DNA of 64,000 nt from Vasconcelosia minhoensis LEGE 07310. Its GTDB lineage: Bacteria; Cyanobacteriota; Cyanobacteriia; Phormidesmidales; Phormidesmidaceae. Below are positions 39,688 through 48,572 of this stretch, piece after piece (position 1 is the stretch's first letter; each line of letters opens with the position of its first letter). The DNA lies in contig NZ_JADEXG010000016.1 of NCBI RefSeq assembly GCF_015207255.1, positions 1 to 64,000 of the forward strand, given 5' to 3'. The notes under the pieces were generated by a model. The model saw only the letters and a program-made list of their open reading frames with translations. It was not told the DNA's origin and did no database searches. A program made the translations under genes and the position numbers.

Positions 39688-40995
39688 TCAGCGGGCATCC
39701 CACTCCGCTGCTGCGTCCTCAACCGCCTGATCGACCGTCTTTTCCGCTAGCATGGCAGCCTGCAGGTTGTCATAGACAATTTTTTGCAATTCCTTAATAT
39801 CTTCCATCGCGGGAATCAGCACTTCGGCATTAGCGAGCTGGTTGGCACTGACCGAGCGAGCCAGCTCAACCGGTGAGGCATCGGCGGGCAGATCGGTAAA
39901 ATAGCTATCTTCCGTCGCGGCAATGGTAGAAGGCAGCACGTTCGCCGCTTTGGCAAAAGCCAGCTGATTTTCGTCATTGGTAACGTAGAGGGCAAACTTC
40001 AGCGCTGCCTCCGGCACGTCAGTCGAGCGCGGAATCACCAAATTCATCACCGCTACGTTGGTCTTGCCCGTGCTGCCGCTGATCTGGGGCGCTACCGCTG
40101 TCGCCTCCGCAATGTCGGGTGCATTTTTGGCGATCGCGTCCAAAAACTCAGCCCCCGATGCCAGAATCGCCGTTTCTCCAGCCTGATAGAGCTCAATGGC
40201 GCGGCGATGTCCCTGAGTCAAAACTTCCCGCGGCAGCAGCTCCTGCTGATATAGATCTGTCCAGTATTGAAAAACGGCCCGGCCGGCCGGCGTATTAAAC
40301 GCCGCATTGCCTTCCTGATCGACCAGGGGTACGCCCATCTGGACAAAGGACTGCATCACATCCGCGGCGTCATCGGGCACAAAGCTGATAAAAAAGGCAT
40401 GCTTACCCGTCTCCGCTTTAATCTGCTTTGCCACTTCAGCAAGTTCTGCAAAAGTCGCTGGCGGGTCACTGATGCCCGCTGCCTGAAAAATATTTTGGTT
40501 GTAAAGCGTCACTCGGGCGGTTAAATACCAGGGCAGCCCAAAGCTTTCATTGGCCAGCGTGCTGGCCTGCCAAATCTTCGGCAGGTAAACTGCCTTTTGC
40601 TCTGCTGAAACGGCCTCATTGAGCGGCAGCCAAGCGTTGCGGCTAGCCAGCTGGGAGGCAAAATCTGGGTTGAGATTGACGACGTCTGGCGCCGTATTCG
40701 CTGACACTGCCGTCAGCACCTTGCTCTGCATATCAGCCCAGGGGACATCGACCCAGTTCACCGTAATATCAGCATTCTCAGCCTCAAAGTCGGCAATCAG
40801 CTGATTGAAGTAGTCGGTAAACTTAGGCTGAAGCTGCATCGTCCAGAACTCGACCGTCTGGGTGCCGGACTGCTCATCCCCTGCGGCTGTTTCATTAGCC
40901 GATCGAGAACCGCTGCTACAGCTTGCCAAAATGGCGATCAGGCTGCCGACTAGCACCAGCGCCAAAAATTTTCTCCAGTGGCGAAACGGATTCAT
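39688..40995 (-). CDS. Extracellular solute-binding lipoprotein, family 1 (sugar type)
   Basis: Periplasmic binding protein of an ABC importer for sugars or polyol-like solutes. 435 residues. Signal peptide with lipobox (AILASC, cleavage before Cys26). The mature protein starts with a Ser/Glu-rich linker, then VEFWTMQLQPKFTDYFNQLIADFE, the ABC sugar-binding family-1 pattern, and later NVAVMNLVIPRSTDVPEAALKF. No permease or ATPase genes flank it, so its partners lie elsewhere. The exact sugar is unknown; glucosylglycerol, maltose-type and glycerol-3-phosphate binders are all in this family. An 8-bp inverted repeat lies upstream at 41024-41048. Confidence 0.87.
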   Translation of the reverse strand: MNPFRHWRKFLALVLVGSLIAILASCSSGSRSANETAAGDEQSGTQTVEFWTMQLQPKFTDYFNQLIADFEAENADITVNWVDVPWADMQSKVLTAVSANTAPDVVNLNPDFASQLASRNAWLPLNEAVSAEQKAVYLPKIWQASTLANESFGLPWYLTARVTLYNQNIFQAAGISDPPATFAELAEVAKQIKAETGKHAFFISFVPDDAADVMQSFVQMGVPLVDQEGNAAFNTPAGRAVFQYWTDLYQQELLPREVLTQGHRRAIELYQAGETAILASGAEFLDAIAKNAPDIAEATAVAPQISGSTGKTNVAVMNLVIPRSTDVPEAALKFALYVTNDENQLAFAKAANVLPSTIAATEDSYFTDLPADASPVELARSVSANQLANAEVLIPAMEDIKELQKIVYDNLQAAMLAEKTVDQAVEDAAAEWDAR

Positions 40996-41655
40996 AGCAA
41001 GACTTTAGGGTGAAGGGCAGTCAGGTTCGCGAAAGCGGGCCGCGAACCCCGCCCGACGGCCGCCGGGCGAAGCCCATTATAGGCAATTGTCGCGCCGACC
41101 TCAATTATCCCAACTTGACTGAGGCTTGCGTTAGTTTGTTTCAGCTCATGGGCAGGTTATATCACCGGCATAGCTAAGCAGCGTCAACCGCAATGTCCCG
41201 GAAAAGCTGACTCGTTTTCCCGGCGTTTTCGATGAAGTTTTGAAATCGCATTGGGGATGACGGGGGATATAGGCTTTGTCGCAGGTAAGAATGACGACTC
41301 CGTAATTCTACCGAACTTTATCCCTTGCCCCTCCCAATCTTTCCTAGATCGGGTAATATCGCTCGTAAAAAAGTACACCCCCAGTTCACACCTTTTGCGA
41401 GGGCTTTTTGCAGATATTTATGGGCTTTTACCCATTCCTGTTTCCTTCTTCATCGAGAATGAGGAAAATCCGTAAAAAACCGTTGTTTAAACCTAATTTT
41501 GGGCAAAATACTCTCGGTTCCAATTCTGGCGGTCTCAACTCTGGCGGTTCTGGCTCGGGCCGGTTCTGACGCTATGCCAAAACGTCGTGGGCCAGATCCA
41601 AGCCAAAGCTGAATCCGTAGTTTAAGGGCTCGGGTTTTGCCGCGATCGCAACTGG
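40996..41655. other. Intergenic region without recognised genes
   Basis: About 660 bases. Apart from the inverted repeat at 41024-41048, no coding or RNA pattern convinced me. Short reading frames on both strands here have no ribosome binding site or conserved look. The right part contains degenerate copies of CTCTGGCGGT (about 41520-41560) just before the minisatellite. The base composition is slightly AT-richer than in the genes. Confidence 0.4.
41024..41048. promoter_or_regulatory. Inverted repeat upstream of the solute-binding gene
   Basis: GGTTCGCG (41024-41031), 9 bases, CGCGAACC (41041-41048). It lies 29 bases ahead of the start codon at 40995, in the leader region. It could be a repressor operator or an RNA hairpin. 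Confidence 0.4.
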
Positions 41656-41785
41656 CTGACTTCTCTGGCTGACTTCTCTGGCTGACTTCTCTGGCTGACT
41701 TCTCTGGCTGACTTCTCTGGCTGACTTCTCTGGCTGACTTCTCTGGCTGACTTCTCTGGCTGACTTCTCTGGCTGACTTCTCTGG
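41656..41785. repeat. 13-bp minisatellite, ten identical copies
   Basis: CTGACTTCTCTGG is repeated ten times in perfect tandem (41656-41785), ending 36 bases before the pilM start codon. As 13 is not a multiple of three and the unit has no stop codons in any minus-strand frame, all three minus frames read a 13-residue period (SQRSQPEKSAREV); these are not genes. The exactness suggests recent slippage growth. Confidence 0.95.
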
Positions 41786-41821
41786 CCAAATTCCCAAATC
41801 TTCCGTGGGCGGACAATTACT

Positions 41822-42904
41822 GTGAACAATTTAAAGTCTTTATTTTCTAGAAAACCGCCTGGGGTCGGGGTAGAGCTGACGCCTGAGCGAGTCAATATTG
41901 CCCGCCTGCGTCGGCAGGGACAAAAGCTCCAGCTAGAGACGCTCTACTCGGCAGAAATTCCTGAAGGCATTTTTGAAGAGGGTCAGATTGTCGATAGTAG
42001 TGAGATGGCCGCGGTAATCCAGTCTGCCCTGAGTGAAAGCAAGCTCAAGGCCAAGCGAGTGACCTCAGCTATTCCCGGCCGGGCGATTACCCGCGTGATT
42101 CCAGTGCCTTCAGAGCTAGACGATGCTGAATTGCGGGAAATGGTGCTCAACCAAGAGGCCAGCCTGTACCTGCCCTTTCCCCGCGAAGAAGCAGACGTGG
42201 ACTACCAAAAGCTGGGCTTTTTTGTCGATGAGGATGGGATAGAAAAGGTTCAGGTGCTGCTAGTCGCTGTTAAGAAAGGCATCACCGATACCTATGCCGA
42301 AACCTTTGCCCAGGCCGGGCTGACGCTAGATATTTTAGAAACCTCTAACTTTGCCCTGATTCGGACGATTCGCGAGCAGCTGAGGCAGTTTACCTCGCAA
42401 GAATCGGCGGCGATTGTCGATATCCAATTTGAAAGTACTGAAATTTCAATTGTGGTAGACGGCATTCCCCATTTTTCTCGCACCGTGCCGATTGGTACCT
42501 TCCAAATTCAAAGCGCCCTGAGTCGGGCCATGAACTTACCGCCCAATCGTAACACCGACCTGATCCAAGGTATGGCCGTACCTGCCGCCGCTGCTCGGGC
42601 GGGCGGCGGCAACCCCGGCACCACCGCGATGCTGCGAATCCTGGGCGAGCTGTCAGATGAGCTGCGGCGCTCGATCGACTTTTATCTGAATCAAAGCGCA
42701 AATATCGAGGTGACGCAGCTGCTGCTGGCAGGGCCGGGTGGCGCCATCGGTCAGCTTGACGAATTTTTTACCCAGCGGCTCAACCTGCCGGCTAGCCTAA
42801 TTGACCCGATTACGGCGCTATCGCTGGAGGTCAGTGAAGATATTTCCCCGGCCCAGCGGCCGGGACTGGCTACTGTACTGGGTTTAGGCCTTCGAGAGGT
42901 ATAG
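41822..42904 (+). CDS. pilM: Type IV pilus assembly protein PilM
   Basis: Cytoplasmic actin-like ATPase that docks the N-terminus of PilN under the inner membrane. 360 residues from GTG 41822. Features: N-terminal GVGVELTPERVNIARLRRQG (residues 14-33), EMVLNQEASLYLPFPREEADVDY, AAIVDIQFESTEISIVVDG (phosphate-1 type) and LLLAGPGGAIGQLDEFF. It opens the pilMNOQ operon, with pilN 3 bases after its stop. The 13-bp minisatellite occupies its upstream region, where the promoter should be. Confidence 0.95.
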   Translation: MNNLKSLFSRKPPGVGVELTPERVNIARLRRQGQKLQLETLYSAEIPEGIFEEGQIVDSSEMAAVIQSALSESKLKAKRVTSAIPGRAITRVIPVPSELDDAELREMVLNQEASLYLPFPREEADVDYQKLGFFVDEDGIEKVQVLLVAVKKGITDTYAETFAQAGLTLDILETSNFALIRTIREQLRQFTSQESAAIVDIQFESTEISIVVDGIPHFSRTVPIGTFQIQSALSRAMNLPPNRNTDLIQGMAVPAAAARAGGGNPGTTAMLRILGELSDELRRSIDFYLNQSANIEVTQLLLAGPGGAIGQLDEFFTQRLNLPASLIDPITALSLEVSEDISPAQRPGLATVLGLGLREV

Positions 42905-42907
42905 AAC

Positions 42908-43717
42908 ATGTACGGCGTTGATATCAATTTTCTAAACGATCGCGGCGTTCGACCGGTCGAGGTACGCTCCAGTAAGCTGGCGGCTCCCCGTCCGACCAGC
43001 GATCGCAAGCCCCTGATGCTCGGCCTAGTCGTTGCCATGGCTGCCCTGGGGGCGCTTGGCGGCGCTTGGCTGGTCTTGCAACAGCAGCAGCGCGGCCTGC
43101 TGGCTCAGCAGGCTGACCTGACGGCACAGCTTCAGGCACTCGAGGCCGAGATTGGCCAGATCGAAACGATTCGACAGCAGACCCAGGCCATCCGAGACGA
43201 AAGCCAGGCGCTGGCTTCAGTTTTTGAACGGATTCGACCCTGGTCAGCGATCGTGCAGGATATCCAGAATCGGATTCCAACTCGCACGCAGATTACTTCA
43301 ATTACTCAGACAGCGCCGCCAGCAGCAACAGCGGCACCGGCAGAAGCGACAGCGGCACCGGCAGAAGGACAAGTGATTGCCCCAGCTGCCTCACCCGCGG
43401 GCGGGTTGGAAATTTCCGGCAACGCCTGCTCCTTTGACGATGTCAATGACTTTCTGCTAACGCTGCAAAACTCTCCGTTCCTGGTTGGACCCACCGTCCA
43501 GATTACGGAAGCAACGCTCAGTGAACCCATCCCGGGTCGCTGCCCCGGCGATCCGGTCAACGGTCAGCCCCTAGCCCTGGCCGAATATACGATTACCGGC
43601 GACATCCAGAGCATTCCGGCGGCTGAACTACTGGCAGAACTCAATAAGCAGCAGGAGCCGACCGGCCTAGCTGCCCGCATTCAAGCCCTTCAAGAAACAG
43701 GAATAGTCGCGCAATGA
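42908..43717 (+). CDS. pilN: Type IV pilus assembly protein PilN
   Basis: Bitopic inner-membrane protein of the pilus alignment complex. 269 residues: the short cytoplasmic PilM-binding motif MYGVDINFLNDR, a single helix at about 37-58 (LMLGLVVAMAALGALGGAWLVL), a coiled coil (about 60-100) and a periplasmic ferredoxin-like fold. A low-complexity insert PPAATAAPAEATAAPAEGQ (about 137-155) encodes a small direct repeat. It overlaps pilO by 4 bases (ATGA at 43714-43717), indicating coupling. Confidence 0.92.
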   Translation: MYGVDINFLNDRGVRPVEVRSSKLAAPRPTSDRKPLMLGLVVAMAALGALGGAWLVLQQQQRGLLAQQADLTAQLQALEAEIGQIETIRQQTQAIRDESQALASVFERIRPWSAIVQDIQNRIPTRTQITSITQTAPPAATAAPAEATAAPAEGQVIAPAASPAGGLEISGNACSFDDVNDFLLTLQNSPFLVGPTVQITEATLSEPIPGRCPGDPVNGQPLALAEYTITGDIQSIPAAELLAELNKQQEPTGLAARIQALQETGIVAQ

Positions 43718-44541
43718 GCAGCATCAGCGGAGATTATATTAACGACGATTTCGATGCCGGTCCGGTCTATCCAGAAGTCTTTGGCGTCGAGATGACACCC
43801 CAGATCTTAGGCGCTTTAGCCGCAGTCGCGGGCGTTGCCCTGGCGGGGTTTGCCTTTGTGCGATTTGTTCTCCCCGTCTACCAGACGAATCAGACCATTC
43901 GCGCTGATATCAATGATAAAAACAGCCAGCTCGCGAGTCAGGCCGAGCAGATTGCCGCAGCCGAGCAGGCCAACGCCGAGCTAGAGCAAGCCCTGGAACA
44001 GCGCCGCACAGTCTATTCGCTGTTTGCCAGTGAGAGCACGATGGATACGCTGCTGCTAGACCTCAACCAGCGGGTCAAGAGCAGCAATGCCGCCCTCGGT
44101 AGCGTTCGCAATCAGGTCAGCAGTCGCGGTATTCCACCGCTGCTGCTAGAAGCCCAGCTGCAAAATTTCAGTCCCGAAGGTGAAACCGTCATCAGCGACG
44201 GCTCTCTGGGCGATGGCGTCAACGGCAAGCTCAAGCGCGATACCTACACGATTGAGTTTCGCGGTGACTTTGCCCAAACCGAAGCCATTCTCAGAAATAT
44301 TGAGCGGCTAGAGCCGCTGCTGCTGTTTCGTGAATTCACGATTGAAAGTGAAGAACCCATTGCTGAAACGGTGATTGGCGCCAATGGCCAGGTCGTTGCT
44401 CAGCCCAAGATTCCCATCGTCACCAGCTTCCAAATTGATGCCCTGATTCCCACCACGGCCCCCGACGAGCTGCCGACCATTGCTCCGCCCCCCGATCCCG
44501 CTGCCCCGGTTGATGGAGCAGTCCCGGCTGAGGGCGGCTAG
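43714..44541 (+). CDS. pilO: Type IV pilus assembly protein PilO
   Basis: Partner of PilN in the inner-membrane alignment platform. 275 residues: a cytoplasmic N-terminus (40 residues), a helix at about 30-53 (ILGALAAVAGVALAGFAFVRFVLP), a Gln/Glu/Ala coiled coil (60-100) and a periplasmic domain with YTIEFRGDFAQTEAILRNIERLEPLLLFREFTI. The last 35 residues are a Pro/Ala-rich tail. There is no pilP gene, as usual in cyanobacteria. The start overlaps the pilN stop. pilQ follows after 108 bases. Confidence 0.9.
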   Translation: MSSISGDYINDDFDAGPVYPEVFGVEMTPQILGALAAVAGVALAGFAFVRFVLPVYQTNQTIRADINDKNSQLASQAEQIAAAEQANAELEQALEQRRTVYSLFASESTMDTLLLDLNQRVKSSNAALGSVRNQVSSRGIPPLLLEAQLQNFSPEGETVISDGSLGDGVNGKLKRDTYTIEFRGDFAQTEAILRNIERLEPLLLFREFTIESEEPIAETVIGANGQVVAQPKIPIVTSFQIDALIPTTAPDELPTIAPPPDPAAPVDGAVPAEGG

Positions 44542-44649: not shown

Positions 44650-46788
44650 GTGAAACGTCGTTTTAAATTTGGTAGCTTAATGGCTGGTGGGGCGCTGATG
44701 GCCCTGATGTCGCAGCCCGCATCGGCCGCAACTGTGATTAAGGGCATTGCCCTCGACCAGACTGAGAAAGGGCTTGAGCTGTCTTTAAAGACTGCTGGTG
44801 ACGACGCCGAAATCTTTTCAGCTCGCCAGGGTAAAACCCTTCAGGCTGACATTACTAACGCCCGGCTAGATCTGCCCTGGGGCAAGCGCTATCAGCGGGC
44901 CAACCCCGCCCCTGGCATTGCCGCCATTCAGCTAGAGGCGCTGGAGGGCGATCGCGTCCGCCTGACCGTAACCGGCACCCAAACCGCGCCGATCAGCGAT
45001 TTCCAGAAAAGCGCCGACAAGGGCCTGCAGGTGAGCTTGGATACCCGTCCCAACGCCACCGCTCGCCGGACTACGCTACCGGCCCGGCTGCAAACTGTCC
45101 CCGCCCAGGAGCTGGCCCAGGCGAACCCCGAAGCCGATCGGGAAGAAGACGCAGCGCCCGAAGTGCTAATTCCCAATCCGCCAGTGACCATCGATGGAGC
45201 CCCGGCAACGCCTCCCATTCTAAATGCGCCGCCGCCTTTCCTACCCCGAGCCGTTGCTCCCCCCGTTGGCGACATCTCGATTTCCGAAATCGATTCCAGC
45301 CTAGACCTGATTAATCTGGGCACCACTGAGCGCGTCCCTCGGCTAGTCCTACGGGATGCTTCCGCCCGCGAAGTGCTTTCCCTGCTGGCTCGGGCGGCTA
45401 ACCTCAACCTGGCCTTCACGAATACCAATGCCGAAGAAGAAAGTACTGAAGTGCGGGTTTCGCTCGATATCCAGGACGAGCCGGTACAGGACGTCTTCAA
45501 CTATGTACTGCAAATTTCTGGCTTAGAGGCTAACCGAGTTGGCAGGACCATTTTTGTCGGCACGAGACTTCCCAATGCGGCTCGCAACGTCATGACGCGG
45601 AGTATTCGACTAAATCAGGTTGATGTAGCCACTGCGCTCAACTTTCTAGTTGCTATGGGCGCAGAGAGTGCAGTTTCTCGGGAGCGATTGGTCACCAGCG
45701 TTAATGCGGTCGAGGTTGGTGACGGGGTTGCGACTACCGACACCCAAACGACGACTGAGGCCAGACTTGAGAATCAGCGCATCGACTATGCAGACTCTAT
45801 CCCGCTGCTGAGGGGCCTGCAGGTGATTGGCGATGAGCGCACCAACTCAGTAACACTGGTTGGGACACCTAGGCAGGTGCAAATTGCTACAGCTCAGCTG
45901 ACTCAGATCGATCTGCGGCGGCGGCAGGTGGCGATTAACGTGCGGGTTATTGACGTTGATTTGAGCGCGATCGACGCATTGGGGACTAGCTTTTCCTTTG
46001 GCGTAGACGATGCTAGCTTCCTCAGTACAAACGGGGTAGGTGTATTCAACTTTGGCGATAGGACTCCAGCTAACAGTGGCGTTTCAGCGTCTCAGGTCGG
46101 ACGAGGGGTTGCCAACTTATTCGGACTCACTAATCCAGTAAGCTTTGTTACCGATTTTCTGCTCCAGCTTCAGGCGGTAGTAACCAACGGTCAGGCTAAA
46201 ATTGTCACTGACCCGACTTTGGTAGTTCAGGAAGGTCAAACAGCCGCAGTTCAACTAACCCAAGAAGTTGTCACCAATGTCACTGAGACAGTAGAAACCA
46301 CTGATGCAGGCATCATTAGAACTACGACATTTGAAAAAGAAGCCGCTGGTCTCAATCTCCAGATTCAGGTCGAGCGAGTGGATGATAATGGATTCGTTGC
46401 CCTATCTGTTGCTCCCTCCATTTCGGCTCCGACCGATACCTTTAATACCGGGACCGGGACGACAGCCGTTCTGCTGGCTGAGCGGCAGCTTTCTTCAGGA
46501 CTAATTCGCGTTCGGGACGGTCAGACTCTGATTTTATCAGGCATCATTCAGGAAAGCGATCGCGTCACGACCTCGAAAGTCCCCATTTTGGGAGATATTC
46601 CGCTGCTGGGGGCGCTATTTAGAAGCACCAATCGTACTAACGAGCGGCAGGAGCTAATCGTCTTGCTGACGCCACAGATCATCGACGACTCTGACCAGAG
46701 TGCGTTTGGCTATAGCTATACGCCTGGCGAAGACGTGCAGCAGCTTCTAGATCGACGCCAGAACCCTGGGCAGCAGCCGAATCGGTAG
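44650..46788 (+). CDS. pilQ: Type IV pilus secretin PilQ
   Basis: Outer-membrane secretin ring through which the pilus leaves the cell. 712 residues: a signal peptide (to about 26, SQPASAA), an AMIN domain (about 27-125) for wall or envelope anchoring, a Pro/Asp-rich linker, N0/N1 STN-like domains (LVLRDASAREVLSLLARAANLNLAF) and the secretin core (about 420-680) with VPILGDIPLLGALFRSTNRTNERQELIVLLTPQII. The last gene of pilMNOQ; the start ATG is actually GTG 44650, after a GAAGGAGTG ribosome binding site. A strong terminator follows at 46846-46890. Confidence 0.95.
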   Translation: MKRRFKFGSLMAGGALMALMSQPASAATVIKGIALDQTEKGLELSLKTAGDDAEIFSARQGKTLQADITNARLDLPWGKRYQRANPAPGIAAIQLEALEGDRVRLTVTGTQTAPISDFQKSADKGLQVSLDTRPNATARRTTLPARLQTVPAQELAQANPEADREEDAAPEVLIPNPPVTIDGAPATPPILNAPPPFLPRAVAPPVGDISISEIDSSLDLINLGTTERVPRLVLRDASAREVLSLLARAANLNLAFTNTNAEEESTEVRVSLDIQDEPVQDVFNYVLQISGLEANRVGRTIFVGTRLPNAARNVMTRSIRLNQVDVATALNFLVAMGAESAVSRERLVTSVNAVEVGDGVATTDTQTTTEARLENQRIDYADSIPLLRGLQVIGDERTNSVTLVGTPRQVQIATAQLTQIDLRRRQVAINVRVIDVDLSAIDALGTSFSFGVDDASFLSTNGVGVFNFGDRTPANSGVSASQVGRGVANLFGLTNPVSFVTDFLLQLQAVVTNGQAKIVTDPTLVVQEGQTAAVQLTQEVVTNVTETVETTDAGIIRTTTFEKEAAGLNLQIQVERVDDNGFVALSVAPSISAPTDTFNTGTGTTAVLLAERQLSSGLIRVRDGQTLILSGIIQESDRVTTSKVPILGDIPLLGALFRSTNRTNERQELIVLLTPQIIDDSDQSAFGYSYTPGEDVQQLLDRRQNPGQQPNR

Positions 46789-47426: not shown

Positions 47427-48539
47427 TTGTCACGTTCACCCTTTGAACCCGCTCATGGGGGCAACCTAGTTTGGGCCGCTCGGCTTGCGCGCTGTGCTCC
47501 CCATGAGCTACTCGATTTTTCTGCTAGCATCAGTCCGCTTGGGCCGCCGCCATCCGTCTTGGCAGCAATCCAGGCGGCTTTTTCATCTTTGACGGCCTAC
47601 CCTGACCCCAGGTATCAGGCCCTTTGCCAGCAGCTCGCCCGGGTGCATGAAATCGACGCCGACTGGGTTCTACCCGGGAATGGCGCGGCAGCGCTGCTGA
47701 CCTGGGCCGGTCGCGAGCTCGCCCAGCATCCTTGCTGGCTGCTGACTCCCGCCTTTAGCGACTATGCTCGGGCCGTCGCTGCCTTTGCCGGGCAAGTGAT
47801 TGAAGTTCCCCTTCAGCAGCAGCATTGGCCGACCGACCCGGACTGGGCCGCCGCGCTCACGGCCGCTATCCCAGCGGGGACAGACCTGAGCCAATGTAGT
47901 CTGCTGCTGAATAATCCCCACAATCCAACCGGCGCACTGCTCAGCCGGGAAGCGATTCGACCTTTTTTAGAGACCTTTGGCCTGGTCGTGGTCGATGAAG
48001 CCTTTATGGACTTTCTGCCCCCCTCCCAGCAGCAAAGCCTGATTGCTTGGGTCGAAAGCTTCCCCAATTTAGTCGTCCTGAGATCGCTGACCAAGTTCTA
48101 CAGCCTGCCGGGCCTACGGATGGGCTATGCCGTTGCCCATCCCCACCGGCTGCGACGCTGGCAGCAATGGCGCGATCCCTGGTCCGTCAATACATTGGCC
48201 GCCGCCGCCGCGATCGCGGCCCTCCAGGACACCGACTTCCAGCAGCAGACCTGGGACTGGCTGGGAGTGGCAAAACCAGACCTATACGCTGGGCTCGCAG
48301 CGCTGCCGGGCCTATCCCCACGACCCGGCAGCGCTAATTTTCTGCTGGTAGACTGCGACTGCCCTAGCCCTAAGCTGCAAAAGCAGCTGCTGATCCGGCA
48401 TAGAATCTATATTCGGGACTGTAGCAGCTTTGCTGAAATCGGCGATCGCGCCTTCCGGGTTGCGGTTAAGACCGGTGCCGACCATCAGCGGCTGCTCGCA
48501 GGGCTGGCTGATGTTTTGAGTGATGGAGTGATGGAGTGA
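47427..48539 (+). CDS. Threonine-phosphate decarboxylase-like / aminotransferase class I-II (CobD/HisC type)
   Basis: PLP enzyme of fold type I. 370 residues, start TTG 47427. The N-terminal HGGNLVWAARLA and DFSASISPLGPP are typical of CobD/CobC proteins, which make (R)-1-amino-2-propanol phosphate for the cobalamin nucleotide loop. The PLP lysine is in SLTKFYSLPGLRMGY. HisC-like histidinol-phosphate aminotransferases are close relatives, so CobD is a family-level call. Its C-terminus is odd: the final codons and stop (GVME, TGA) lie in an 8-bp tandem array (48521-48552) that can change the end of the protein. Confidence 0.82.
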   Translation: MSRSPFEPAHGGNLVWAARLARCAPHELLDFSASISPLGPPPSVLAAIQAAFSSLTAYPDPRYQALCQQLARVHEIDADWVLPGNGAAALLTWAGRELAQHPCWLLTPAFSDYARAVAAFAGQVIEVPLQQQHWPTDPDWAAALTAAIPAGTDLSQCSLLLNNPHNPTGALLSREAIRPFLETFGLVVVDEAFMDFLPPSQQQSLIAWVESFPNLVVLRSLTKFYSLPGLRMGYAVAHPHRLRRWQQWRDPWSVNTLAAAAAIAALQDTDFQQQTWDWLGVAKPDLYAGLAALPGLSPRPGSANFLLVDCDCPSPKLQKQLLIRHRIYIRDCSSFAEIGDRAFRVAVKTGADHQRLLAGLADVLSDGVME

Positions 48540-48552
48540 TGGAGTGATGGAG
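48521..48552. repeat. 8-bp tandem repeat, four copies, spanning a stop codon
   Basis: TGATGGAG occurs four times in direct tandem at 48521-48552, overlapping the last codons and TGA stop (48537-48539) of the aminotransferase gene. Gain or loss of a unit changes reading frame and so the C-terminus. Confidence 0.9.
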
Positions 48553-48572
48553 TGGGGAGTCGGGAAAACTGA

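Follow-up and report, generated by a model that had tools for sequence, protein, structure and literature searches.

A perfect 13-bp tandem array in the probable 5′ leader of a cyanobacterial pilM-N-O-Q operon, most likely a near-neutral minisatellite

Introduction

Ten error-free copies of a 13-bp unit stand directly before pilM in the 64,000-nucleotide stretch of Vasconcelosia minhoensis LEGE 07310 DNA analyzed here (the window). A previous sequence-only reading proposed that such an array could tune pilus expression by phase or level variation. The question is therefore whether the number of copies has a route to the expression of pilM, and what kind of repeat this array is.

Extent, Purity, and Uniqueness of the Array

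TRF analysis of the window placed the array at 41652–41786 (no strand assigned), with the unit CTGGCTGACTTCT, a period of 13, 10.4 copies, 100% match, and a score of 270. It consists of CTGGCTGACTTCT repeated ten times plus the 5-bp remainder CTGGC, and the ten perfect repeats previously noticed at 41656–41785 are this same array in a different phase. Between its final base and the GTG start codon of pilM at 41822 there are 35 bp. The longest run of bases identical to the base 13 positions away was 122 in the array, compared to best runs of 9–11 at any period of 5–30 in ten simulated Markov sequences (64 kb each, with the dinucleotide make-up of the window); the array is far beyond chance expectation.

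When a two-unit pattern was searched through the 5.26-Mb genome (161 contigs) with 3 mismatches allowed, the sole site was this array. It was also the top-scoring array with three or more copies in approximately 1.04 Mb sampled from its own genome, comprising the window and 0.98 Mb of further sequence taken in stretches. Its length and purity are exceptional by the standards of the sampled genome, which counts against reading it as an ordinary repeat; perfect arrays elsewhere in the genome adjoin unrelated genes. The runner-up, six copies of a 14-bp unit (L143, 15285–15368), lies 122 bp upstream of a DnaJ-like ORF, and an aldehyde-dehydrogenase-like gene carries a near-perfect 17-bp unit in 5.1 copies at its 3′ end (L140, 4617–4702). 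Within the window, a perfect 8-bp repeat, GAGTGATG, in 4.6 copies (48518–48554) spans the stop codon of an aminotransferase gene (47427–48539) and stops 18 bp short of the ATG of the following gene.

The copy number might partly be a product of assembly, the true array being longer or of mixed length. Assembly from short reads can render repeat arrays incorrectly (PMC6868369). The genome is a draft in the 161 contigs given above, and the 135 bp of the array fall just under the 140 bp from which 127-base words would start to repeat (by arithmetic, with the word size assumed). However, the array lies within an 89-kb contig without a break, and such an error would alter only the count and not remove the array. 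We consider this somewhat unlikely, and it is compatible with the explanation preferred below.

Gene Setting and Relatives

The gene downstream of the array (41822–42904, plus strand, GTG start) had been called pilM, and the Pfam match to PF11104 (PilM_2; E value, 8.8e-39) bears this out. It leads a pilM-N-O-Q operon that continues on the plus strand with pilN (42908–43717; PF05137), a probable pilO (43714–44541), assigned by its position between pilN and pilQ, with a PilO Pfam match absent, and pilQ, encoding a secretin with an AMIN domain (44650–46788; PF00263 and PF11741). The divergent neighbor on the minus strand (39688–40995) encodes a solute-binding lipoprotein (PF01547; E value, 1.5e-43), and the intergenic region between the two genes measures 826 bp from start to start. 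PilM relatives with 69–84% identity were present in 52 of the 56 other genomes of the family, the closest being those of Leptothoe, Adonisia, and Leptolyngbya PCC 7375 (82–84%), and the host is a Leptothoe-related cyanobacterium.

Promoter-Like Elements Upstream of pilM

The regions 100–700 bp before pilM were compared among 80 pilM relatives (L039–L118). These regions contained at most two conserved elements, and both were present in 37 of the 80. The distal element, around TTGTGTGTAATATCGCTGGT, was found 225–695 bp before pilM in 43 relatives, and the proximal element, AAATTGTGTACCATGCGTTAGCA, was strong in most relatives and stood mostly 100–200 bp before the gene. In the window, the distal promoter-like element is CGGGTAATATCGCTCGTAAAAAA (41350–41372, plus strand), which aligned with the copies of the Leptothoe/Adonisia group at 22/23 identity (E values, 4e-6 to 2e-4). 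A local alignment of the window to the proximal region of the relatives was dropped in favor of this match. Most Leptothoe-group relatives carry the distal element 440–490 bp before pilM. Since it persists beside differing upstream neighbors (purT, a solute-binding protein, a NurA-like gene, and a histidine kinase, as named by reading the ORFs), the element seems to be tied to pilM and not to the neighboring gene.

The pilM-Q operon of Nostoc punctiforme is among the most sigJ-dependent genes, and the J-Box GGGaAtacT, in which GGG, A, and T are named the most conserved positions, is the extended -10 of SigJ promoters (PMC6495340). The distal element of the window includes GGGTAATAT (41351–41359), which carries the GGG, A, and T of this consensus, a likeness to the J-Box only. 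Both conserved elements resemble the J-Box and may be regarded as candidate promoters. The proximal motif AAATTGTGTACCATGCGTTAGCA was undetected in the window, where its best score was no better than that of shuffles, and it has apparently been lost, diverged, or replaced there. A weak candidate for a proximal J-Box-like site is GGGCAAAAT (41501–41509, plus strand), which agrees with the J-Box at 6/9 positions (consensus from PMC6495340), with the strongly conserved ones matched, and looks by eye like GGGCAATCT of Phormidesmis-type loci.

With either candidate site, the leader would be approximately 305–455 nt long, and the array is downstream of both. A consensus scan found no promoter flanking the array and none downstream of it. 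Because the distal promoter-like element is upstream of the array, the array most likely sits in the 5′ leader rather than in the promoter, and its earlier assignment to the leader region of pilM holds. Degenerate, older-looking 15-bp repeats, CGGTTCCAATTCTGG, CGGTCTCAACTCTGG, and CGGTTCTGG (41515–41553, plus strand), were read in the same leader.

Predicted Effect of Copy Number and Repeats in the Leaders of Relatives

A leader of variable length could act as a rheostat, in which the count of unstructured 13-nt units alters the stability or translation of the pilM mRNA and slippage produces graded pilus levels. The array stands in the probable leader near the start codon of pilM, and slippage is possible because its copies are perfect. 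Predicted opening energies at the pilM start also go in this direction: over 0 to 20 copies they remained between 10.8 and 9.3 kcal/mol for a transcript from 41516 (10.6 to about 9.3 from the lowest to the highest copy number) and between 11.2 and 8.8 kcal/mol for one from 41367 (10.6 to 8.8), with a drop of approximately 1–2 kcal/mol between 0 and 10 copies. However, the predicted effect is small and nearly flat above approximately eight copies. A modest tuning effect of copy number is possible according to these models, and an on/off switch is not predicted. The RNA of the array folded no better than shuffles, with positive fold z-scores, and had no match in Rfam, and a structured RNA was rejected on these grounds. 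Rho is generally absent from cyanobacteria, and Rho-dependent termination was put aside for this reason.

The unit CTGGCTGACTTCT was absent from the pilM leader site in the relatives examined and is lineage-specific. Some relatives have different arrays in the corresponding leader, which would favor an effect of leader length: 7-bp arrays are found at about -64 to -13 of pilM in three Moorena genomes, and in L043 and L044 the region from about -255 to -39 holds arrays whose units, 24 and 25 bp long, contain a TTAGGC-nnn-GCCTAA-type palindrome. The 24-, 25-, and 7-bp units are mutually unrelated. Nevertheless, pilM leaders are not enriched in repeats; in the last 300 bp before pilM of 75 relatives, repeats covered 3.7% versus 4.2% of the other non-coding DNA of these loci (ratio, 0.85; 95% CI, 0.43–1.6). 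A repeat hot spot at pilM leaders was rejected on this count, and since the coverage is not above that of other non-coding DNA, the leader seems to tolerate arrays without attracting them. We therefore regard graded control by leader length as unlikely. The further proposal, that a hypermutable rheostat sets pilM-Q output and hence motility or DNA uptake among the cells of one population, with the Leptothoe-relative and Moorena arrays as independent inventions, is very unlikely.

Two further features were observed in these leaders. The arrays of L043 and L044 displace both promoter-like elements upstream by approximately 120–230 bp compared to sister genomes. In L040, L041, L042, and L044, a 16-bp duplication at -29 to +3 of pilM spans the ribosome site and the start codon, and in L040 it leaves a tiny upstream frame, GTG ACC GGA TAA, directly before the real GTG.

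Alternatively, a regulator of pilM that binds RNA or DNA could use the repeats as its sites. The array offers ten identical sites near the start codon, and a role of this type has been suggested for the TAACTGA repeats found close to start codons (PMC4679880). A unit 12/13 identical to CTGGCTGACTTCT also occurs in 3.3 copies in G035, a genome of another genus of the same family (L139, 1492–1534). That copy, however, lies in a different intergenic region, near tatC, and the unit is found at the pilM site in no relative examined and is unique within its own genome. Furthermore, a period of 13 bp is not in register with the turn of the DNA helix, and proteins bound to successive units would not be aligned on one face. 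A regulatory role of this kind is quite improbable.

Reading Frames Through the Array

On the plus strand, every unit contains a TGA and lacks a start codon, and TGA occurs in all three frames of the array. The sole upstream ORF that reaches into the array ends at 41672, and no reading frame in the window that starts before the array continues through it into pilM. For these reasons, a change in copy number could not shift the frame into pilM. It would likewise leave promoter spacing unaffected, because the array lies downstream of the promoter-like elements and its length exceeds that of a core spacer. Read on the minus strand, the array is stop-free in all frames and has no start codon. The two ORFs on that strand (115 and 107 aa) gave no match in Pfam and were rejected as genes, being open only through the repeat; the earlier view that these frames mimic a gene without being one was confirmed.

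Comparison With Known Repeat Systems

Tandem repeats next to surface-structure genes are known from Haemophilus hifA/hifB and Neisseria nadA, where they change promoter spacing or regulator sites (PMC3899988). Like these, the pilM array is a tandem repeat preceding a surface-structure gene, but it is downstream of a conserved promoter-like element that lies approximately 280 bp before it, whereas phase variation by promoter spacing calls for a repeat between or beside the promoter elements. Classical phase variation through promoter spacing or a frame shift, although the usual mechanism for bacterial repeats beside pilus and surface genes (review PMC3899988), is extremely unlikely here and largely refuted by the sequence, as 135 bp far exceeds the length of a -35/-10 spacer, the conserved element is upstream with no flanking promoter in the scan, and no frame traverses the array.

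Cyanobacterial heptamer repeats, including TAACTGA, form intergenic tandem arrays, some of them just before start codons, and have followed strain-specific paths (PMC4679880). The array shares with them its tandem, intergenic arrangement before a start codon. It differs in that its unit is 13 bp and not 7 bp and in that it occupies one genomic locus instead of the many loci of a dispersed family, and it does not belong to the heptamer class of short tandem repeats (STRR).

The closest counterparts are the bacterial intergenic minisatellites and VNTR loci, which are perfect head-to-tail arrays of 10–25 bp units, non-coding, lineage-specific, and likely generated by slippage or recombination. 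Its 13-bp unit, present in 10.4 copies at 100% match, places the array within the definition of at least three head-to-tail copies of approximately 9 bp or more. Variation from strain to strain is a trait of VNTR loci, whereas this array is known from one genome, its genus being represented by one genome in the comparison.

Conclusion

Taken as a whole, the array is probably an ordinary bacterial minisatellite in the pilM-N-O-Q leader, grown by slippage or recombination, transcribed, and with little or no effect on pilM. It looks recently expanded. Replication slippage or recombination would have lengthened it within the long 5′ leader of the operon. Transcription would begin upstream of it, most likely from the J-Box-like (SigJ-type) extended -10 at 41351–41359 with a start near 41367, and perhaps from a second start near 41516, and the array would be transcribed as a weakly structured spacer. 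That it is near-neutral is the most likely state of affairs, argued from missing signals, and a neutral or weakly tuning minisatellite is the best reading of the locus. The proposal that the array tunes pilus expression by phase or level was not supported, considering the promoter-like element upstream of it, the lack of a frame into pilM, a predicted start access that barely depends on copy number, and leaders that are not enriched in repeats.

The main present use of the array is as a strain-typing marker. Of greater value is a by-product, the conserved promoter-like pair before pilM across filamentous cyanobacteria, which provides a testable map of what drives the operon. Were pilus levels to change with copy number, the array would give filamentous cyanobacteria a simple means of generating differences in motility from cell to cell.
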